A DNA stretch of 64,000 nt from assembly GCF_900167935.1 (NCBI RefSeq), contig NZ_FUYL01000009.1:131289-195288 (forward strand). The letters run 5' to 3'. Position numbers and translations under genes: made by a program. Positions within the stretch are counted from its first letter, which is position 1; each line of letters opens with the position of its first letter. Shown here one piece after another: positions 8,708 to 44,734 of this stretch. This DNA comes from Maribacter arcticus (GTDB lineage: Bacteria > Bacteroidota > Bacteroidia > Flavobacteriales > Flavobacteriaceae). The notes beneath the pieces were generated by a model. The model had not been told where the DNA came from and ran no database searches. It was given only the letters and a program-made list of their open reading frames with translations.

Positions 8708-9790
8708 TTACCCGTTCACTATTTTCTCTTGATGGCGAATAGACTCTTGGTGAATCGCTTTAAACATACGAAGAACAAATTCTTCACTAAGTCCTTTGGT
8801 TTCCCCTTCTAAAATCATTGCTCCTAAAATCTCGTTCCACCGTGTACTCTGTAAAACAGCAACATTCTTCTCTTTCTTAAGAGCGCCAATTGCATCTGAA
8901 GTTTTCATACGCTTACCTAAAGTCTCAAGTAATTGATTATCGAAAATATCAATATTCGCTCTTAAGTTGTTCAATTTAGCCTTGTATTCCGTTTCAGTGT
9001 TATCCTCTTTACGTATTTTCAAATCTTTCATGATTTGCACCAATACAGATGGTGTCACCTGCTGTGCAGCATCACTCCAAGCATTGTCTGGATCATGATG
9101 AGTTTCAATCATTAAACCATCAAAATTAAGGTCCAAAGCAGTTTGCGATACATCAAAGATCATATCTCTATTCCCTGTAATATGAGAAGGATCATTAATG
9201 ATAGGTAAATCTGGAAATTTAGTCTGCAAATCAATTGGCATTTGCCATTCTGGAATATTTCTATATTTAGTTTTCTCATACGTTGAGAAACCTCTATGAA
9301 TTACCCCTAAATTTTTTATATCTGCAGTAGCCAAACGTTCAACAGCTCCTAGCCATAAAGCTAAATCTGGATTCACAGGATTCTTTACCAACACAATTTT
9401 ATCAGTTCCTTTTAATGCATCTGCAATTTCTTGAACGATAAACGGACTAACAGTTGATCTTGCACCAATCCATAATAAATCGATATCGTGCTCTAAAGCC
9501 AATTCTACATGTGCACGGTTTGCAACCTCCGTCGCAGTTTTCATGCCAGTTTCTGCTTTAACTTTTTGAAGCCATTTAAGGCCCAATGCGCCTACACCTT
9601 CAAAATTTCCTGGGCGAGTACGTGGTTTCCAAATACCTGCTCTGTAATAATTTACATCGGTATCTTTTAGGGAGTGTGCTATTCCTAACACTTGCTCCTC
9701 TGTTTCCGCACTACATGGCCCTGCTATTACTAGTGGATGGTCTAGTTTTAAATCATCCAACCATGTTCTCATTTGTTTTGAATTTTCCAT
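8708..9790 (-). CDS. Bifunctional DAHP synthase / chorismate mutase type II
   Basis: 360 residues. Residues 1-255 form a class I-beta DAHP synthase (PLVIAGPCSAET, AGIWKPRTRPGNFEG, GMKTATEVAN, IGARSTVSPF, NDPSHITGNR), which condenses PEP with erythrose-4-phosphate at the first shikimate step. Residues about 265-360 form an AroQ-type all-helical chorismate mutase (LNNLRANIDIFDNQLLETLGKRM, ending IHQESIRHQEKIV), which converts chorismate to prephenate. The fusion is standard in Bacteroidota and lets the mutase domain act as feedback sensor. It is the last gene of the operon. Confidence 0.93.
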   Translation of the reverse strand: MENSKQMRTWLDDLKLDHPLVIAGPCSAETEEQVLGIAHSLKDTDVNYYRAGIWKPRTRPGNFEGVGALGLKWLQKVKAETGMKTATEVANRAHVELALEHDIDLLWIGARSTVSPFIVQEIADALKGTDKIVLVKNPVNPDLALWLGAVERLATADIKNLGVIHRGFSTYEKTKYRNIPEWQMPIDLQTKFPDLPIINDPSHITGNRDMIFDVSQTALDLNFDGLMIETHHDPDNAWSDAAQQVTPSVLVQIMKDLKIRKEDNTETEYKAKLNNLRANIDIFDNQLLETLGKRMKTSDAIGALKKEKNVAVLQSTRWNEILGAMILEGETKGLSEEFVLRMFKAIHQESIRHQEKIVNG

Positions 9791-9800
9791 TTTAATTATT

Positions 9801-10661
9801 CTATTTCTTGTTTAACGGTATTCCTTTTAATATTCCTTTTATCTTATTGGTATTGTTCATTTCATTGTAAATGCCTTCGTAATCATCTTGTAACAACAAC
9901 TCTTTAAATGCTGTTAGATTTTGAATATACTCATCTAATGTCTCGACCACATTCTCCTTATTTTGTTTGAAAATTGGAGTCCACATTGCCGGCGAACTTT
10001 TTGCCAAACGAACCGTGCTTTCGAATCCACTGCCCGCCATATCAAAAATATCACGTTCGTTTTTCTCTTTCTCAATTACTGTCTTACCCAACATAAAAGC
10101 ACTTATGTGCGATAAATGAGAGACGTATGCGATATGCTTGTCATGCGCTTCAGGGTTCATATAGCGAATACGCATACCTATCGCTTGAAAAATTTGCAAA
10201 GCTTTTTCTTGTAACTTAAAGGCAGTCAGCTCAACTTCACAAATAATATTCGTCTTATCTCTGAACAGATCATTTATCGCTGCCGACGGACCAGAAAATT
10301 CTGTTCCTGATATTGGGTGGCATGCTAGAAAATTTCTTCTCTTCGGATGGCTCTCCAACGTTTTACAAATTAAAGCTTTCGTTGACCCCACATCAAATAC
10401 AACACAATCTTCAGGTACGGCATCCAATATTTTTGGAATCTCGGTCACCATCACATCTACAGGGATACTTACAATCACCATATCTGCCAATTGTAAATCT
10501 TGATAGGTCGCTTTCTTATCGATAATTCCTAATTCTTTGGCTTCTGCCAAATGTGTGTCATTAGAATCTATACCATACACGGTAACATCTTCTTGCGTAG
10601 ACTTTATGTCTTTCGCTAAAGAACCTCCAATTAAACCTATACCGATTACAAATACATTCAT
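9801..10661 (-). CDS. tyrA: Prephenate dehydrogenase
   Basis: NAD(P)-dependent oxidative decarboxylation of prephenate to 4-hydroxyphenylpyruvate (tyrosine branch). I take the ATG at 10661, which starts MNVFVIGIGLIGGSLA, a Rossmann GxGxxG right at the N-terminus. The longer frame from 10748 would only translate the end of the upstream aminotransferase. This gives 286 residues and a 4-bp gap to the upstream stop. Also seen are CHPISGTEFSGP and the HDKHIAYVSHLSHISAF helix with catalytic histidine. Confidence 0.92.
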   Translation of the reverse strand: MNVFVIGIGLIGGSLAKDIKSTQEDVTVYGIDSNDTHLAEAKELGIIDKKATYQDLQLADMVIVSIPVDVMVTEIPKILDAVPEDCVVFDVGSTKALICKTLESHPKRRNFLACHPISGTEFSGPSAAINDLFRDKTNIICEVELTAFKLQEKALQIFQAIGMRIRYMNPEAHDKHIAYVSHLSHISAFMLGKTVIEKEKNERDIFDMAGSGFESTVRLAKSSPAMWTPIFKQNKENVVETLDEYIQNLTAFKELLLQDDYEGIYNEMNNTNKIKGILKGIPLNKK

Positions 10662-10665
10662 TAAA

Positions 10666-11811
10666 CTAAAATCTTGCGATTGCTTCTTTAATTTTATCCT
10701 CAGTAATACATAGTGAAAAGCGGATATACCCTTCGCCATTACTACCAAAAATGGTTCCTGGTGTTATGAACAAATCCTTTTTATATAATATCTGATCTAT
10801 AAATGCTTCGGATGCCACACTACCTTCAGGTAATTTTGCCCAAACAAACAAGCCAACAGCATCTCTATCATAAGAACAGCCAAGCGTATCTGCCAATTGA
10901 AAAATCAATTCTCTACGTGCACTATATACCTTGTTCAATTCAACGAACCAGTCATCACTGCTCTCCAATGCCGCTATTGCTCCTTTCTGAATGCCGTAAA
11001 ACATACCCGAATCCATATTACTCTTGACCTTTAAAATAGCATTGATATGTTCTTCGCTTCCTAGAACAAAACCTACACGCCAACCAGCCATGTTAAAGGT
11101 TTTGCTTAATGAATTCAATTCTAAACAAACATCTTTAGCATTAGGTATGCTTAAAATACTTGCTGGGTCTGTATTCAGCACAAAACTATATGGATTGTCA
11201 TTTACCAACAGAATAGTATGCTTTTTTGCAAAGGCTACAATTTTCACAAATTGTTCTCTAGTTGCGGTAGCACCTGTTGGCATATGTGGGTAACTCAACC
11301 ACATAATTTTGACTTTAGACAAATCTTGCTCCTCCAACACCTCTAAATCTGGAAACCAACCATTCTCTTCTGTAAGGTCGTAATATGTTGGGACAGCCCC
11401 TACCAAATTAGTTACCGATGTATATGTCGGGTACCCAGGATTCGGAATCAACACCTCATCACCTGCATTTAAAAATGCAAGACTAATGTGCATAATACCC
11501 TCTTTAGACCCCATTAATGGGAGAATTTCAGTGGCAGGATCTGCAGTTACGTCAAATCTCTTGTTATAAAAACTTGCTATAGCCTCTCTTAATTGAGGTA
11601 AGCCTTGGTAGCTTTGATACTGATGTGCACCAGCTTCAAACACAGAATTCTGTATCGCTTTCAATACATGTTCTGAAGGAGTCAAATCTGGACTCCCGAT
11701 CCCCATATTAATGATAGGTTTACCTTGCGCCATTAAACCGCGCACCTCTCTTAATTTCTTAGAGAAGTAATATTCCTGAACAGTCTTAAGTCTATCAGCG
11801 GTCTGTATCAT
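10666..11811 (-). CDS. Class I/II PLP aminotransferase (probable aromatic aminotransferase)
   Basis: 381-residue fold-type I aminotransferase. GIGSPDLTPSEHV begins the core, and the PLP lysine is in SLSKTFNMAGWRVGF. Sequence alone resembles aspartate and LL-diaminopimelate aminotransferases. Its position between pheA and tyrA in an aromatic operon argues that it transaminates phenylpyruvate and 4-hydroxyphenylpyruvate. It overlaps pheA by 4 bp, so translation is coupled. Confidence 0.88.
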   Translation of the reverse strand: MIQTADRLKTVQEYYFSKKLREVRGLMAQGKPIINMGIGSPDLTPSEHVLKAIQNSVFEAGAHQYQSYQGLPQLREAIASFYNKRFDVTADPATEILPLMGSKEGIMHISLAFLNAGDEVLIPNPGYPTYTSVTNLVGAVPTYYDLTEENGWFPDLEVLEEQDLSKVKIMWLSYPHMPTGATATREQFVKIVAFAKKHTILLVNDNPYSFVLNTDPASILSIPNAKDVCLELNSLSKTFNMAGWRVGFVLGSEEHINAILKVKSNMDSGMFYGIQKGAIAALESSDDWFVELNKVYSARRELIFQLADTLGCSYDRDAVGLFVWAKLPEGSVASEAFIDQILYKKDLFITPGTIFGSNGEGYIRFSLCITEDKIKEAIARF

Positions 11812-12635
11812 CCTCTCACATTTTTATATTCACCCAAAACCTTAAAATCTTCTGCCATGATGTTCAATAGACTTTTTGCCTTTGTAAAATCTGCAAAATC
11901 GTTAAAAGTTACATCCACAAAAAAGGCATATTTCCAAGGTGTTTCTATAACTGGCAATGATTGTATTTTCGTTAAATTTAATCTGCAATCGCTCATAACA
12001 TTAAGCACAGCAGCTAAACTGCCCCTTTTATGGTCGGTAATAAAACGAATGGAAGCCTTCGTAATTTCGGCCTCTGGCAACGCATCGTTTTTTGTTTGTA
12101 CAATGATAAAACGGGTTGCATTATTTTTAATAGTCTGTATGTCATTTGCTACGATGTCCAAACCATATAATTCTGCCGCAACTTTTGGTGCAATGGCTGC
12201 TACATGCGCTAATTTTTGTTCTTGAATACGTTTTGCCGTTTCAGCAGTATCGACATCTTCTACCAATTTAATATGCGGATATTGTCTAAAATATTCCTTG
12301 CATTGCAATAATGCCATAGGGTGTGAACTCACTTCAGAAATATCTGAAATTTTTTGCCCTTTCAGCACCATCAAATTATGATGAATGTTTAAGTAATATT
12401 CCCCTATAATATGTAAGTCGTTATGGTTGACAAGAGCATAATTTGGGATAATTGATCCGGCAATCGAATTCTCTATAGCCATCACCCCTTGATCCGCTTC
12501 TTTCGATAATAATTTATCAACCAACTCATCGAACGAAAGGCATTCGACAAGCTCTATATCATCTCCATAACAATCTTTTGCTACTTGGTGATGGTTGGAA
12601 CCTTTAATTCCCTGTATGGCTATTTTTAAACTCAC
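11808..12635 (-). CDS. pheA: Prephenate dehydratase
   Basis: Converts prephenate to phenylpyruvate. Over 275 residues there is a periplasmic-binding-fold catalytic domain (IAIQGIKGSNHHQVA, MAIENSIAGSI, NNATRFIIVQ with the catalytic TRF) and a C-terminal ACT domain (about 195-270). In the ACT domain the usual Phe-binding motifs are altered: GSLAAVL stands where GALV is typical and QSLP where ESRP is typical. Allosteric control by Phe may therefore differ from the E. coli type. No mutase domain is fused; that activity is in the DAHP synthase at 8708. It is the first structural gene after the attenuator. Confidence 0.93.
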   Translation of the reverse strand: MSLKIAIQGIKGSNHHQVAKDCYGDDIELVECLSFDELVDKLLSKEADQGVMAIENSIAGSIIPNYALVNHNDLHIIGEYYLNIHHNLMVLKGQKISDISEVSSHPMALLQCKEYFRQYPHIKLVEDVDTAETAKRIQEQKLAHVAAIAPKVAAELYGLDIVANDIQTIKNNATRFIIVQTKNDALPEAEITKASIRFITDHKRGSLAAVLNVMSDCRLNLTKIQSLPVIETPWKYAFFVDVTFNDFADFTKAKSLLNIMAEDFKVLGEYKNVRG

Positions 12636-12653: not shown

Positions 12654-12684
12654 AAAAAAAAAGTTCCGACATATATCGGAACTT
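12654..12684 (-). terminator. Leader (attenuator) terminator upstream of pheA
   Basis: On the minus strand the perfect stem AAGTTCCGA / TCGGAACTT with a 6-nt loop is followed by nine U. It lies between the leader peptide ORF (stop at 12710) and pheA (start 12635), so it would abort transcription before the operon. Its 5' arm can pair instead with CGGGACU inside the last codons of the leader ORF (12717-12723; seven pairs, one G-U), which gives a mutually exclusive antiterminator. Confidence 0.85.
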
Positions 12685-12709
12685 AATTCTATTTTATTTT
12701 TAAAATATG

Positions 12710-12781
12710 CTAGAACAGTCCCGTACCTCTCTTAAAAAAGAAGTAGAAATAAAAACCTGTCCAGAAATATTGTTTTGTCAT
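12710..12781 (-). CDS. Phe/Tyr-rich leader peptide of the aromatic operon attenuator
   Basis: A 23-codon ORF (ATG at 12779-12781, TAG at 12710-12712). It encodes 7 Phe, 3 Tyr and 1 Trp, including the run FYFYFFF at residues 10-16. The ORF stops 25 nt before a perfect intrinsic terminator that precedes pheA. A ribosome stalled at the Phe/Tyr run would leave the antiterminator segment (codons 20-22) free; one that reaches the stop would cover it and let the terminator form. The layout parallels E. coli pheL and trpL. It is too short for ordinary gene finding. The composition is so skewed toward the operon's end products that chance is unlikely. Confidence 0.85.
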   Translation of the reverse strand: MTKQYFWTGFYFYFFFKRGTGLF

Positions 12782-12799
12782 TGCTCTTGTAAACTTTGG

Positions 12800-12807
12800 C
12801 TAAAGTA
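12800..12807 (-). promoter_or_regulatory. Probable -7 promoter box for the aromatic operon leader
   Basis: TACTTTAG on the minus strand, one mismatch from the Bacteroidota TAnnTTTG box. The same TTACTACTTTAGCC context precedes hppA (about 54240). It would start transcription roughly 10 nt before the leader peptide ATG. No convincing -33 TTG is seen, hence modest confidence. Confidence 0.45.
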
Positions 12808-12906: not shown

Positions 12907-13404
12907 TCACCACTTGATTGCCAAACCAAACCCCGATCCATTAGCAACCGGTTCTAACCTAAATGTTGTTTTTTTATCGAACTGTTTATTATAAGATAGG
13001 ATTGCTCGTTTTCTAGATTTATTGGCACTATTCAAAAAAATAGCTCCAATTATACCAGCACCCAAACTACCCGCTAATGGTCCTATTGCATTTTTAGCTT
13101 TGTCACGGTTCGATAAATTAGGGTCATCGTTAATTAATTCTGATATACCCCAAATACCGACTGCAAATTGACCAAGTAAAGCGACGCCAGCCACCACTTC
13201 CTTGGTGTCTGCTTTTTTCCAGTGCATATATACTTCCTCGTTTTTGGAGAAAAGGTCTTTAACATCCTTTTTGGTTATTTTTTGATCATCTTGATAATAT
13301 TCCATACCCCACATGCTTGCAAAAGACGTAATCTCTTGCGCCATGCTATTCGCAATTACGACTACAAACAGGACCAAAAAGAGTTTCACTTTTAAATATT
13401 TCAT
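12907..13404 (-). CDS. Exported protein of unknown function
   Basis: 165 residues with a signal peptide (MKYLKVKLFLVLFVVVIANSMAQ). The central part has two hydrophobic glycine-rich segments (about 71-90, VVAGVALLGQFAVGIWGI, and about 108-125, AIGPLAGSLGAGIIGAIFL), either membrane-embedded or buried. Between them is a polar DDPNLSNRDKAKN linker. I recognise no family. It lies beyond the aromatic leader region with no obvious terminator and is the last gene of a loose minus-strand envelope group. Confidence 0.78.
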   Translation of the reverse strand: MKYLKVKLFLVLFVVVIANSMAQEITSFASMWGMEYYQDDQKITKKDVKDLFSKNEEVYMHWKKADTKEVVAGVALLGQFAVGIWGISELINDDPNLSNRDKAKNAIGPLAGSLGAGIIGAIFLNSANKSRKRAILSYNKQFDKKTTFRLEPVANGSGFGLAIKW

Positions 13405-19073: not shown

Positions 19074-19186
19074 GGGCGTTACCTAACGGTCGGGCTTTAC
19101 GCTATATTTTTTCTATTTCTAAACCCTATTTTCATTTTGGCAAACATGAGCAAAAATAGAAAAGATGCCGCTTCAATCCCTAACGC
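19074..19186. repeat. Bacteroidota-type intergenic repeat with GCGTTA / TAACGC ends
   Basis: About 113 bp between metH and metF. It starts GGGCGTTACC, continues with CGGTCGGGCTTTACGCT, contains an A/T hairpin (TTTTTCTATTT / AAAATAGAAAA), and ends GATGCCGCTTCAATCCCTAA then CGC. I recall the same block, with different hairpins, between genes in many flavobacterial genomes. It carries no ORF. Confidence 0.65.
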
Positions 19187-19189
19187 AAA

Positions 19190-21901
19190 TTAGGCATCTA
19201 CAATATTTGGAGACAACCATCTCTCAGCTTTTTCGAAAGCTATTCCCTTTCTATCCGCAAAGTCTTTCACCTGGTCTTCCTTTATTTTACCTAATCCAAA
19301 ATAACGTGCTTCGGGGTTTCCAAAATAATACCCACTAACTGATGCCGCAGGCCACATCGCCAAACTATCCGTTAGTTCTACACCTATTGTTTCCTTAACT
19401 TTTAAAATATCCCAAATGGTCAATTTCTCCAAGTGATCCGGACAAGCAGGATAGCCTGGTGCCGGACGAATACCTTTATAGGATTCGTGAATCAATTCTT
19501 CATTGCTCAATTCTTCATTAGCCGCATAACCCCAATGTTTCATACGAACCTCTTTATGTAAGTATTCAGCGAATGCTTCGGCCAACCTATCTGCCAATGC
19601 TTTTACCAAAATGGAGTTATAATCGTCTAAATTCTTTTCATATTTCCCAGCCAACTCTGCAGTACCGAAACCGGTGGACACACAAAAACAACCTATATAA
19701 TCTTGCTTTCGACTTTCTTGAGGTGCAATAAAATCTGCCAAAGCATAATCCGCAACCCCTTCTCTTTTCTGTAATTGTTGACGCAGTGTTCTAAATATGT
19801 AGCTTTCTTCATCTCGCCCTTGAACTGAGCTCAAGGAAACATTGATATCATCTTGGTTGATTGAATTGGCAGAAAATAGCCCAAAAATTCCTTTTGCCTT
19901 TAACTGCTTCTCCCTAATAATTTGCTTCAACATTTCTTTTGCATCGGCAAATAATTCGGTCGCTTGAGCGCCTACTACATCATCGGTTAATATTGCAGGG
20001 TATTTACCATGCAGTTCCCAACTTCTAAAAAATGGAGTCCAATCGATATAAGGCACCAAAAGATTTAAATCTAAATCTTCAATAACTTGAATTCCTAATT
20101 TGTTAGGCTTAAAAATTTCACTTTTGTTCCAATCTATCTTAAACTTATTTCTGCGCGCAGCAGCAATCGTCTTGTATGTTTTACTGGAAGAGCGGTTTAA
20201 AAACTTGGCTCTAAAAACATCATAATCTTCCTTTATTCTCTTTTTATATCCGACAGACGTTTCTTTTTGAAGTAAATCGCCTACTACAGTAACTGCCCTT
20301 GAAGCATCATTTACATGAACCACAGCTTCGTTATATTGCGTATCTATTTTTACCGCTGTATGCGCCTTACTCGTTGTTGCACCACCAATCAATAAGGGGA
20401 TTTTAAAATTCTTTCGTTCCATCTCTTTGGCCATGTGTACCATTTCATCCAAAGAGGGTGTTATTAACCCGCTTAACCCTATAATATCTACATTATGTTC
20501 AATGGCGGCTGCGATTATTTTTTCTGGTGGCACCATAACCCCTAAATCAACAATCTCATAATTATTACACGCCAGAACAACACCCACGATATTCTTACCG
20601 ATATCATGAACATCTCCTTTTACGGTTGCCATCAAAATTTTACCGGCATTATCAGAATCTCCTTCTTGCGGATTCAGTAATTTCTCTTCCTCTATATACG
20701 GCAACAAATACGCCACGGCCTTTTTCATAACCCGAGCAGACTTTACTACCTGTGGCAAGAACATTTTTCCGCTTCCGAATAAATCTCCGACAACGTTCAT
20801 ACCAGTCATCAGGTTCTCTTCAATTACCTGAATTGGCTTATCTGCAGCTAGTCTTGCTTCCTCAACATCTTCAACAATATATTGGTCAATACCTTTTACT
20901 AAGGCACGTGTAATTCTATTTTGTAATGGCTCCTCTCGCCATGATAAATCAATCTTACTTTCTTTTGTTTTACCTACAACCGATTCCGCAAAATCGAGTA
21001 AACGTTCCGTTGCATCGTCCCTCCTATTTAAAATGACATCTTCTACACGCTCCAGTAAATCCTTAGGAATATCATCATAAACCTCTAACATACTCGGGTT
21101 TACAATACCCATATTCATTCCCGCTTTAATAGCGTGATATAAGAATACTGAATGCATAGCCTCACGAACAGGATTATTTCCCCTAAATGAAAAAGAAACA
21201 TTACTCACTCCACCACTTACACTTGCGTGAGGAAGATTTTCGCGTACCCATTTAGTAGCTTTTATAAAATCTAAGGCATTGAGCTTATGCTCATCCATTC
21301 CCGTAGCAACGGGGAAAATATTAAGGTCAAAAATGATATCCTCTGGTGCGAAACCCACCTTATCAACTAAAACATCATACGAACGCTTAGCAATTTCGAT
21401 TCGACGTTCATAATTGTCGGCTTGCCCTACTTCATCAAAAGCCATAACTATTACAGCGGCGCCATAGCGTTTAATCAATTTAGCCTGATGCATGAATTGT
21501 TCTTCACCTTCCTTTAAACTAATGGAATTCACTACACATTTTCCTTGAACCACTTGCAAACCAGCCTCTATGATTTCCCATTTAGAGCTATCAATCATGA
21601 TAGGAACTCGAGAAATATCGGGCTCGGCAATTACAAGGTTTAAAAACTTGACCATGGCTTCTTTACCATCAATCAGACCATCGTCCATGTTAATGTCGAT
21701 TACCTGTGCTCCATTCTCTACCTGCTCCCTCGCTACGACTAAAGCTTCTTCAAATTTCTCTTCTTTAATTAATCGAAGAAACATTTTAGAACCAGCAACA
21801 TTGGTACGTTCACCAACATTAATAAAATTCGTTTCAGGGGTTACAATCAATGGCTCAAGGCCACTTAACTTTAGAAATCGTTGTTCGTTTTTTCCGCTCA
21901 T
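19190..21901 (-). CDS. metH: Cobalamin-dependent methionine synthase, folate/B12/activation part
   Basis: C-terminal two thirds of MetH as a separate protein (903 aa): pterin-binding domain (about 15-290, [22 protein letters not shown]), four-helix cap, cobalamin-binding domain (about 415-555, with the axial-His motif DVHDIGKN and [14 protein letters not shown]), and the SAM-dependent activation domain (about 600-900, [12 protein letters not shown]). It transfers methyl from 5-methyl-THF through cobalamin to homocysteine. The homocysteine module is the gene just upstream (14 bp gap). Splitting metH in two is common in Bacteroidota. Confidence 0.95.
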
Positions 21902-22917: not shown

Positions 22918-22999
22918 TTTACGCTGTAAAAAGTTCTACGTTCATTAAAAATTAATACGATACCAAGGAAGGAAAGGATAGGAAAGTGTTCTTTCTTGA

Positions 23000-23104
23000 G
23001 TTATCTGTCCCAAAAAAAGGGATAGAATGTAGCACCTTCTTATCCGTTAGGGAAAGGGTTGCCAAGGTTTCATAGGGTCTAATCCCTCCACCTTTCTTGA
23101 TAAC
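23000..23104 (-). ncRNA. SAM-I (S-box) riboswitch upstream of metH-metF
   Basis: On the minus strand the P1 helix is GUUAUC / GAUAAC (23104-23099 with 23005-23000). Between these arms are the conserved S-box blocks AAGAAAGGUGGAGGGA, UAGACCC, AUGAAACCUUGGCAACC and AAGGUGCUACAUUC in correct order. After the aptamer I see a small GAAAG / CUUUC hairpin but no U-tract, so the expression mechanism is not obvious; it may act on translation or on an unrecognised structure. High SAM should switch the operon off. Confidence 0.93.
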
Positions 23105-23130
23105 GTTTCAATCTATTTATGAACGAATTG

Positions 23131-38057: not shown

Positions 38058-38178
38058 GATTTTGTTGTTTTTAAATATTATTTAAATAATTAAAAAGCTC
38101 ATCCTCGACCGACATAAAATGTGGGTAGGTAAAATCAAAAAGTTATAAGAAAGTAATATCGAAAAAAAATCGATTACT

Positions 38179-38278
38179 GTTATCCTTCCCGTAAGGGTAG
38201 AATGTAGCACCTTCTTTGTATGGAACAAAGGGTTGCTAAGGTTTCAAAGGGTCTAATCCCTCCACCTTTCTTGATAAC
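38179..38278 (-). ncRNA. SAM-I (S-box) riboswitch upstream of metY
   Basis: Minus-strand P1 helix GUUAUC / GAUAAC (38278-38273 with 38184-38179), then AAGAAAGGUGGAGGGA, UAGACCC, UUUGAAACCUUAGCAACC and AAGGUGCUACAUUC in order. Downstream on the minus strand AGTAAT ... ATTACT around a CGAT8CG core gives a weak hairpin, but no classical terminator. A TATATTTG promoter box lies about 40 nt upstream (around 38310). Confidence 0.93.
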
Positions 38279-38459
38279 TATTCAATATGTGTTTGAACTT
38301 TGCCCTGCAAATATAAGGGCAGAGGATTTTAAAAACCTAATGATTTTTAAAAAATCATATAAAATAACAAGTTGTGTATTTTAAGGGGCTGTTTATAACT
38401 AATTGTGTAAATAATCGCTCAATATCGCTAGTTTTTTGTTCATCTTTCAGAAAAACATC

Positions 38460-44560: not shown

Positions 44561-44651
44561 TACAATATTTTTGACAGTAATGGATTTGGTGATATACGGG
44601 AAGAAGTTTATGAGTCTCTATGAAAGAGAATCCAAATTATATTTGGAATAA

Positions 44652-44722
44652 ACTGCTTTAGCATTTTTATCCTTAAAACTAGCTTAAGGCCCCGAGGTTG
44701 CAATCAGACAAATCCTTCCTCT
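44652..44722 (-). ncRNA. SAM-II-like riboswitch in the metK leader
   Basis: On the minus strand: P1 arm GAGG (44721-44718), loop GGAUUUGUCUGAUUGCAA, P1 arm CCUC, then an extra hairpin CCUUAA / UUAAGG (44689-44671), then GAUAAAAAUGCUAAAGC. The blocks GAUUUG, UUGCA, (A)UAAA and GCUAAA are the conserved core of SAM-II aptamers in the right order. The inserted hairpin between P1 and the pseudoknot strand is unusual. Downstream are hairpins UCCAAAU / AUUUGGA and UCUCU / AGAGA but no U-tract, so control is probably translational. Confidence 0.75.
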
Positions 44723-44734
44723 TTAATAATGACA

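Follow-up and report, generated by a model that had tools for sequence, protein, structure and literature searches.

A probable Phe/Tyr leader-peptide attenuator upstream of the pheA operon of Maribacter arcticus and its conservation in Flavobacteriaceae

Leader region and operon

We analyzed the region upstream of pheA in a 64,000-nt stretch of the Maribacter arcticus genome (the window), where a short aromatic-rich ORF and an intrinsic terminator are followed 3' by four genes in the order pheA, aminotransferase, tyrA and DAHP synthase-chorismate mutase fusion (DAHPS/CM) (table 1). Only one gene of this genome, pheA, matches PF00800, and the nearest named relative found was Maribacter orientalis, with a pheA 98% identical; for tyrA the ATG start was chosen, an alternative TTG lying further 5' at 10748. 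The leader peptide contains seven Phe, three Tyr, and one Trp, with FYFYFFF as residues 10-16, and 25 nt separate its stop codon from the terminator, whose arms (12684-12676 and 12669-12661) are accompanied by nine T (12662-12654). The first-pass annotation had described this minus-strand ORF of 23 codons and its aromatic residues, which we confirm base by base, and had set a 9-bp terminator between a -7 box and pheA, where we also find it. Of 132 leaders, 122 have a match to the -7 consensus TAnnTT[A/T]G no more than 60 nt 5' of their ATG, compared with 139 of 1,320 shuffles, and the window's own copy is probably a promoter -7 element. The 23-residue peptide matched no family in NCBIfam (E up to 1) or Pfam (E up to 0.01), and at the gathering score no Rfam family matched the leader site.

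Table 1. Features of the pheA leader and operon in the window, with the evidence for each
Feature	Position	Strand	Evidence
Putative promoter -7 box TACTTTAG, 18 nt 5' of leader start	12800..12807	-	Sequence
Leader peptide ORF MTKQYFWTGFYFYFFFKRGTGLF, 23 codons	12710..12781	-	Sequence and family conservation
Segment 1 CTGGACAG, codons 6-9, proposed protector arm	12757..12764	-	Ribosome-free whole-leader fold
Control codons 10-16 (FYFYFFF), proposed ribosome stall site	12734..12754	-	Codon variation pattern
Segment 2, antiterminator 5' strand CGGGACTGTTCTA, codons 20-24	12711..12723	-	Distance to last Phe codon
Antiterminator 3' strand TAGAATTAAGTTCCG, overlapping terminator 5' arm	12677..12691	-	Fold with ribosome at codon 16
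Intrinsic terminator AAGTTCCGA/TCGGAACTT and nine T	12654..12684	-	Sequence; hairpin -12.2 kcal/mol
pheA, prephenate dehydratase, GTG start at 12635	11808..12635	-	PF00800 E 4.6e-58
Class I/II aminotransferase	10666..11811	-	PF00155 E 9.5e-60
tyrA, prephenate dehydrogenase	9801..10664	-	PF02153 E 1.3e-31; PF20463 E 9.2e-27
DAHPS/CM	8708..9790	-	PF00793 E 1.3e-36; PF01817 E 3.5e-20

We infer that the leader ORF is translated. In 61 unique 23-codon leaders, variation across codons 10-16 was 0.054, 0.155, and 0.219 at bases 1, 2, and 3, the low overall level being partly selected, because these leaders had been chosen for their length and for a motif touching the aromatic run; the changes are mostly TTT/TTC, TAT/TAC, and Phe/Tyr swaps. 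In the antiterminator (codons 20-22) the values were 0.144, 0.247, and 0.129, with base 3 lowest, unlike in the run. Such a pattern would be expected if the run is conserved as coding sequence and the antiterminator as an RNA element. Across 132 leaders, the last eight aromatic codons comprise 624 Phe, 348 Tyr, and 79 Trp; Tyr is present in all 132, at least twice in 129, and Trp occurs somewhere in the leader in 91. Such Phe/Tyr content, together with the products of the operon, fits the sensing of both amino acids. Past the run, the C-terminus of the peptide is clade-dependent (TGLL, NEALYV, SRD, or a stop codon inside the antiterminator element), and the first base of the antiterminator core can fall in any of the three reading-frame phases (66, 30, and 12 of 108).

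Conservation within the family and beyond

A first sample, from a scan of genome contigs with pheA, comprised 80 loci, of which 78 show an aromatic-run leader followed by a terminator; of the remaining two, L037 has only 149 bases upstream and L077 is without a leader. The four-gene order follows the leader in 77 of the 80, and in the other three (3971 to 4515 bases) only pheA and the aminotransferase were found. A wider sample of 149 family genomes represented each genus about once; pheA was present in 136 and all 136 upstream regions were read, a leader being defined as an ATG ORF with at least six aromatics in 10 residues and a strict terminator by a scan for perfect stems. The first-pass annotation had made a conserved aromatic-rich ORF in relatives one test of its proposal, and the ORF is indeed conserved: a leader is present in 133 of the 136 family loci, and a leader with a strict terminator in 129. 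No leader was found at L246 and L268, and L251 is cut by the contig end. Within 400 bp of pheA, ORF and terminator co-occur in 127/136 real regions versus 0/136 opposite strands and 0/680 dinucleotide shuffles; for the ORF alone the figures are 131/136, 3/136, and 17/680. Leaders that all have a strict terminator were gathered into a set of 149, with 131 from the family (129 of the 136 loci plus L123 and L135), 14 from the rest of the class, and 4 from other classes; seven without a strict terminator (L155, L225, L260, L270, L290, L298, and L299) were excluded.

Outside the family, the loci read were 20 of 48 matches in the order, 26 of 27 in the class, and 32 of 158 in other classes, a non-random choice made for similarity and mostly one per genus; later loci of the class and order (L322-L361) entered the presence tallies only. 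Four families of the order (f2, f3, f9, and f15) have a leader in 9/9 loci, two of them with only five aromatics in 10. No leader was found at the one locus of another family of the order (L348), nor at five loci of GTDB family f5, whose pheA is divergent. In family f16, five 0.6-Mb genomes (L352-L356), from their size probably insect endosymbionts, keep pheA, and no leader with terminator was found; L354 and L355 show an aromatic-run ORF, possibly a relic or chance. In other orders of the class, a leader occurs in 23/26 loci and is joined by a strict terminator in 17/26; three congeneric genomes from a different family of the class (L144-L146) yielded no leader. Leader and terminator are also found in 4/32 loci of other classes of the phylum (L282, L284, L286, and L297), and since those four pheA are among the most similar to that of the window, transfer of gene and switch together, or mis-binned contigs, is possible. 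A covariance model, R1, was dropped as a finder for these counts because its weaker matches were mixed, and was replaced by a protein search for pheA with reading of the upstream region: its second match in the Maribacter arcticus genome (47.4 bits) lies just beyond an OmpA-like gene with no aromatic leader seen, and a match of 44.8 bits in genome G039 lies directly upstream of pheA.

Covariation of terminator and antiterminator, which the first-pass annotation had proposed to look for, was scored on aligned leaders. In 73 aligned leaders all 650 of 650 lettered cells of the terminator helix are paired, and cells changed on both sides number 66 versus 21.1 in shuffles; pair types (12 vs. 11.7) are not above shuffles, and doubly changed pairs number 4 versus 2.9, with four reached in 35/500 shuffles. 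The 7-bp antiterminator helix in a MAFFT alignment has 87.1% of its cells paired and covariation not above shuffles (56/500 reach it), in part because clades with a shifted stop codon are out of register in that alignment.

Antiterminator geometry and ribosome position

CGGGACT (12723-12717, codons 20-22) can pair with AGTTCCG of the terminator 5' arm (7 bp, one G-U), as first proposed. The predicted antiterminator of the window is larger than first described, with 13 bp between CGGGACTGTTCTA and TAGAAT-AAGTTCCG enclosing an A+U hairpin; it is made of 7 bp, a 2-nt bulge, 6 bp, and the hairpin, and at -14.1 kcal/mol is slightly stronger than the terminator (-12.2 kcal/mol). Its 5' strand, segment 2, begins 13 nt past the start of the run's last Phe codon, counted from the first base of that codon. 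The same spacing recurs in relatives: among 79 leaders, the antiterminator starts 13 nt past the first base of the last aromatic codon in 64, 12 nt in 10, 14 nt in 4, and 16 nt in 1, which places 78 of the 79 at 12-14 nt after the last Phe/Tyr codon's first base; these leaders include close relatives, and the 73 distinct segments give 58, 10, 4, and 1. The end of the antiterminator, on the other hand, counted from the base that follows the stop, varies between -13 and +4 in the same 79 leaders; the stop codon moves. Because the antiterminator was placed wherever complementarity was best in a range of 24 nt, the fit of the pairing is partly built in; the constancy of the codon-to-antiterminator distance is not built in by the search. 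In a wider set, a search between 9 and 19 nt from the codon found the complete 6-bp core helix in 108 of 142 leaders, with a standard deviation of position of 1.30 nt from the last aromatic codon versus 5.85 nt from the stop (108 leaders). An initial antiterminator search had taken A+T-rich helices in L020, L029, L051, L062, and L076; the later search was limited to the terminator core.

The pairing is partly specific to each leader's own terminator arm. The table of arm classes covers 139 of the 149 leaders, and these score 5.22 on average with their own arm versus 3.05 when combined with arms of other classes (973 pairings). Specificity is absent in the window's clade: its GTTCCG class (4 leaders) fits the GTCCCG arm better (6.00 vs. 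5.40 with its own), and the ATCCCG class (9 leaders) scores 3.42 with its own arm, below two other arms. A free search with swapped arms gave only a modest separation (mean 18.1 own vs. 14.3 swapped), with 27% of own scores at or above the 95th percentile of swapped ones.

The first-pass annotation had held that a ribosome at the stop codon would mask the antiterminator and that one stalled at the Phe/Tyr run would leave it free. A folding model, in which the RNA was assumed to be free from 13 nt past the first base of the codon in the A site and the antiterminator was scored as formed when at least half of the terminator 5' arm paired backwards, agrees with this: the antiterminator forms in 139/149 leaders when the last aromatic codon occupies the A site and in 1/149 with the ribosome at the stop codon. 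With the intervening region shuffled, 345/745 (46%) pair back; mean energies are -13.8 versus -6.1 kcal/mol. In the window, the predicted energy passes from -14.1 kcal/mol with codon 16 in the A site to -5.4 (codon 17) and -4.0 kcal/mol (codon 18). The identical test on Escherichia coli trpL leaves the antiterminator open when the ribosome sits at either Trp codon, half open when it is at codon 13, and closed at codon 14 and later.

A protector hairpin between segments 1 and 2 is likely in many relatives, judging from the computed folds, and doubtful in the window. In the ribosome-free fold of the window's whole leader, codons 6-9 are paired to codons 22-24 and the terminator is present. Across the 149 leaders, the segment 1:2 duplex reaches -13.81 kcal/mol with the leader's own segment 1, -9.67 with that of another clade (clades being defined by peptide motifs), and -9.41 with a shuffled one, and the own duplex beats all eight shuffles in 75/149. 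The window's own duplex is weak (-9.9 kcal/mol), and ribosome-free folds of the leader before the terminator retain the antiterminator in 110/149, the window among them, which makes protection by segment 1 doubtful there.

Mechanism, alternatives, and comparison with known systems

Taken as a whole, the element is very probably a transcription attenuator of the trp/phe type. The analysis establishes its sequence, conservation, complementarity, geometry, and computed folding energies; ribosome stalling, termination, read-through, and the sensing of both Phe and Tyr we infer. RNA polymerase would transcribe the leader from a promoter just 5', with a ribosome following. When charged tRNA-Phe or tRNA-Tyr is scarce, the ribosome would pause within codons 10-16 with its leading edge ending right before the antiterminator in codon 20; segment 2 could then pair with the terminator 5' arm, forming the 13-bp antiterminator and allowing read-through into pheA-aminotransferase-tyrA-DAHPS/CM. 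With Phe and Tyr plentiful, the ribosome would reach the stop codon and cover segment 2, the terminator would form, and transcription would end near 12654. Less certainly, on an RNA with no ribosome, a pairing between codons 6-9 and 22-24 may keep the terminator unobstructed.

Other explanations account less well for these data. The aromatic run could belong to a sequence-specific arrest peptide, whose nascent chain would stall its own ribosome on an aromatic metabolite rather than through slow decoding, and the peptide is in fact well conserved in some clades (e.g. MTKQYFWNGFYFYFFFKRGTGLL in several loci); yet between genera the sequence changes and aromatic density is maintained (e.g. MTVHYTYFNNWFYFFFSKRNEALYV and MATNRFYFSNNFYFFFSRS), Phe and Tyr swap within the run, and the C-terminal residues vary with RNA complementarity and reading-frame phase, all of which renders this explanation very unlikely. 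We give marginally less credence still to an attenuator that binds a protein or metabolite (a riboswitch, T-box, or target of an RNA-binding protein) with the ORF incidental. Such an element would share the structured leader with terminator, and sub-threshold Rfam matches do occur, but none reaches the gathering score at the site, an aromatic-run ORF with coding-type variation in its run is present in 133 of the 136 family genomes, and the position of the antiterminator is fixed relative to the last Phe/Tyr codon. That a plain terminator merely separates an upstream gene from the pheA operon, the aromatic ORF having arisen by chance, seems hardly credible: a same-strand upstream ORF ending at 12907 could be served by it, but ORF and terminator stand together in 127/136 regions as opposed to 0/680 shuffles and 0/136 opposite strands, and 122/132 leaders have a promoter-like box just 5' of the ORF.

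With regard to the origin of the attenuator, we somewhat favor a model where a Phe/Tyr attenuator already lay 5' of pheA in the ancestor of most of the class and was kept despite drifting peptide, phase, and stop codon, because only the aromatic codons and their distance of about 13 nt, set by the leading edge of the ribosome, would matter. If so, transcription and translation would be tightly coupled across the group, and attenuation would be a general control of its amino acid operons. Bacteroidota ribosomes are known for initiation without Shine-Dalgarno pairing. An attenuator needs a ribosome close behind RNA polymerase, and a conserved natural reporter of this kind would thus make coupling in Bacteroidota testable. 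The proposed attenuator further points to a way in which a single Phe- and Tyr-producing operon might be matched to both products. Leaders of this type could be searched for and annotated by a simple rule: aromatic codons and, about 13 nt on, an antiterminator.

Further leaders and structured RNAs lie elsewhere in the same genome. Upstream of hisG (L315), a His-rich leader, MKNRTTHHHTHAQAR, precedes a strong terminator, and is likely a His attenuator. Upstream of one ilvD-family gene (L317), an Ile/Val-rich leader, MKLSFLNINVIVVIPG, followed by a terminator, is likely an Ile/Val attenuator; for two other ILVD-family genes (L318 and L319) the same scan found no terminator in 700 bp upstream. 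Upstream of trpE (L316), the strong hairpin after a Trp-rich leader, MENLIVNTWWWYNLRITT, lacks a T run, and control may therefore not depend on intrinsic termination. If these readings are true, the Phe/Tyr, His, Ile/Val, and perhaps Trp operons would be attenuated in this genome alone. The window also holds three riboswitches of the SAM families (38177-38280, 22998-23106, and 44648-44727, all on the minus strand), two SAM and one SAM-II, and a Flavo-1 RNA, an Rfam motif, at 19084-19191 on the minus strand; PMC9723704 leaves the function of Flavo-1 unclear.

The first-pass annotation had known of no standard annotation of this leader in Flavobacteriaceae, which has to be corrected: passages of PMC9723704 already report that a structured, conserved 5' element precedes pheA and recurs in other genera of the family, and they describe clues to leader-peptide attenuation upstream of amino acid biosynthesis operons of Flavobacterium psychrophilum, where 5' elements precede pheA and hisG. 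That pheA element, as far as those passages describe it, is very likely the same as the window's, and the passages give no leader sequence, antiterminator, geometry, or class-wide distribution. Leader-peptide attenuation seems little described in Bacteroidota, the direct mention found being that of PMC9723704; leader-like short ORFs in Bacteroides are mentioned in a passage of PMC7366714. The genus-by-genus conservation and the 13-nt rule go beyond the prior literature found in a search that covered mainly open-access papers. According to the relevant part of PMC2965389 (2010), such leaders were known to its authors only in Proteobacteria and Actinobacteria, ermC excepted as atypical, and that work added one leader-peptide attenuator in Firmicutes.

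The mechanism itself is textbook, and the pheL/trpL logic invoked by the first-pass annotation stands, relatives having retained an aromatic run and a terminator as well as the complementarity for an antiterminator and the spacing that the ribosome model requires. As in the window, E. coli pheL-pheA (RF01859, Phe_leader) has a Phe-rich leader and a hairpin with a T run 5' of pheA, and RF01859 aligns end to end (model 1-125 of 125) at 12779-12655, with 22.2 bits and E 0.13, below the cut-off of 55. Unlike E. coli pheL, the window leader contains Tyr besides Phe, and the operon that it heads includes tyrA and DAHPS/CM; the E. coli tyrA and aroF genes are on the strand opposite pheA. E. coli trpL-trpE shares the mutually exclusive antiterminator and terminator, and closes two to three codons past the Trp codons; it differs in amino acid and gene. 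Compared with the leader attenuators of Proteobacteria and Actinobacteria, the logic proposed here is the same, in Bacteroidota and with a stop codon that is free relative to the antiterminator.
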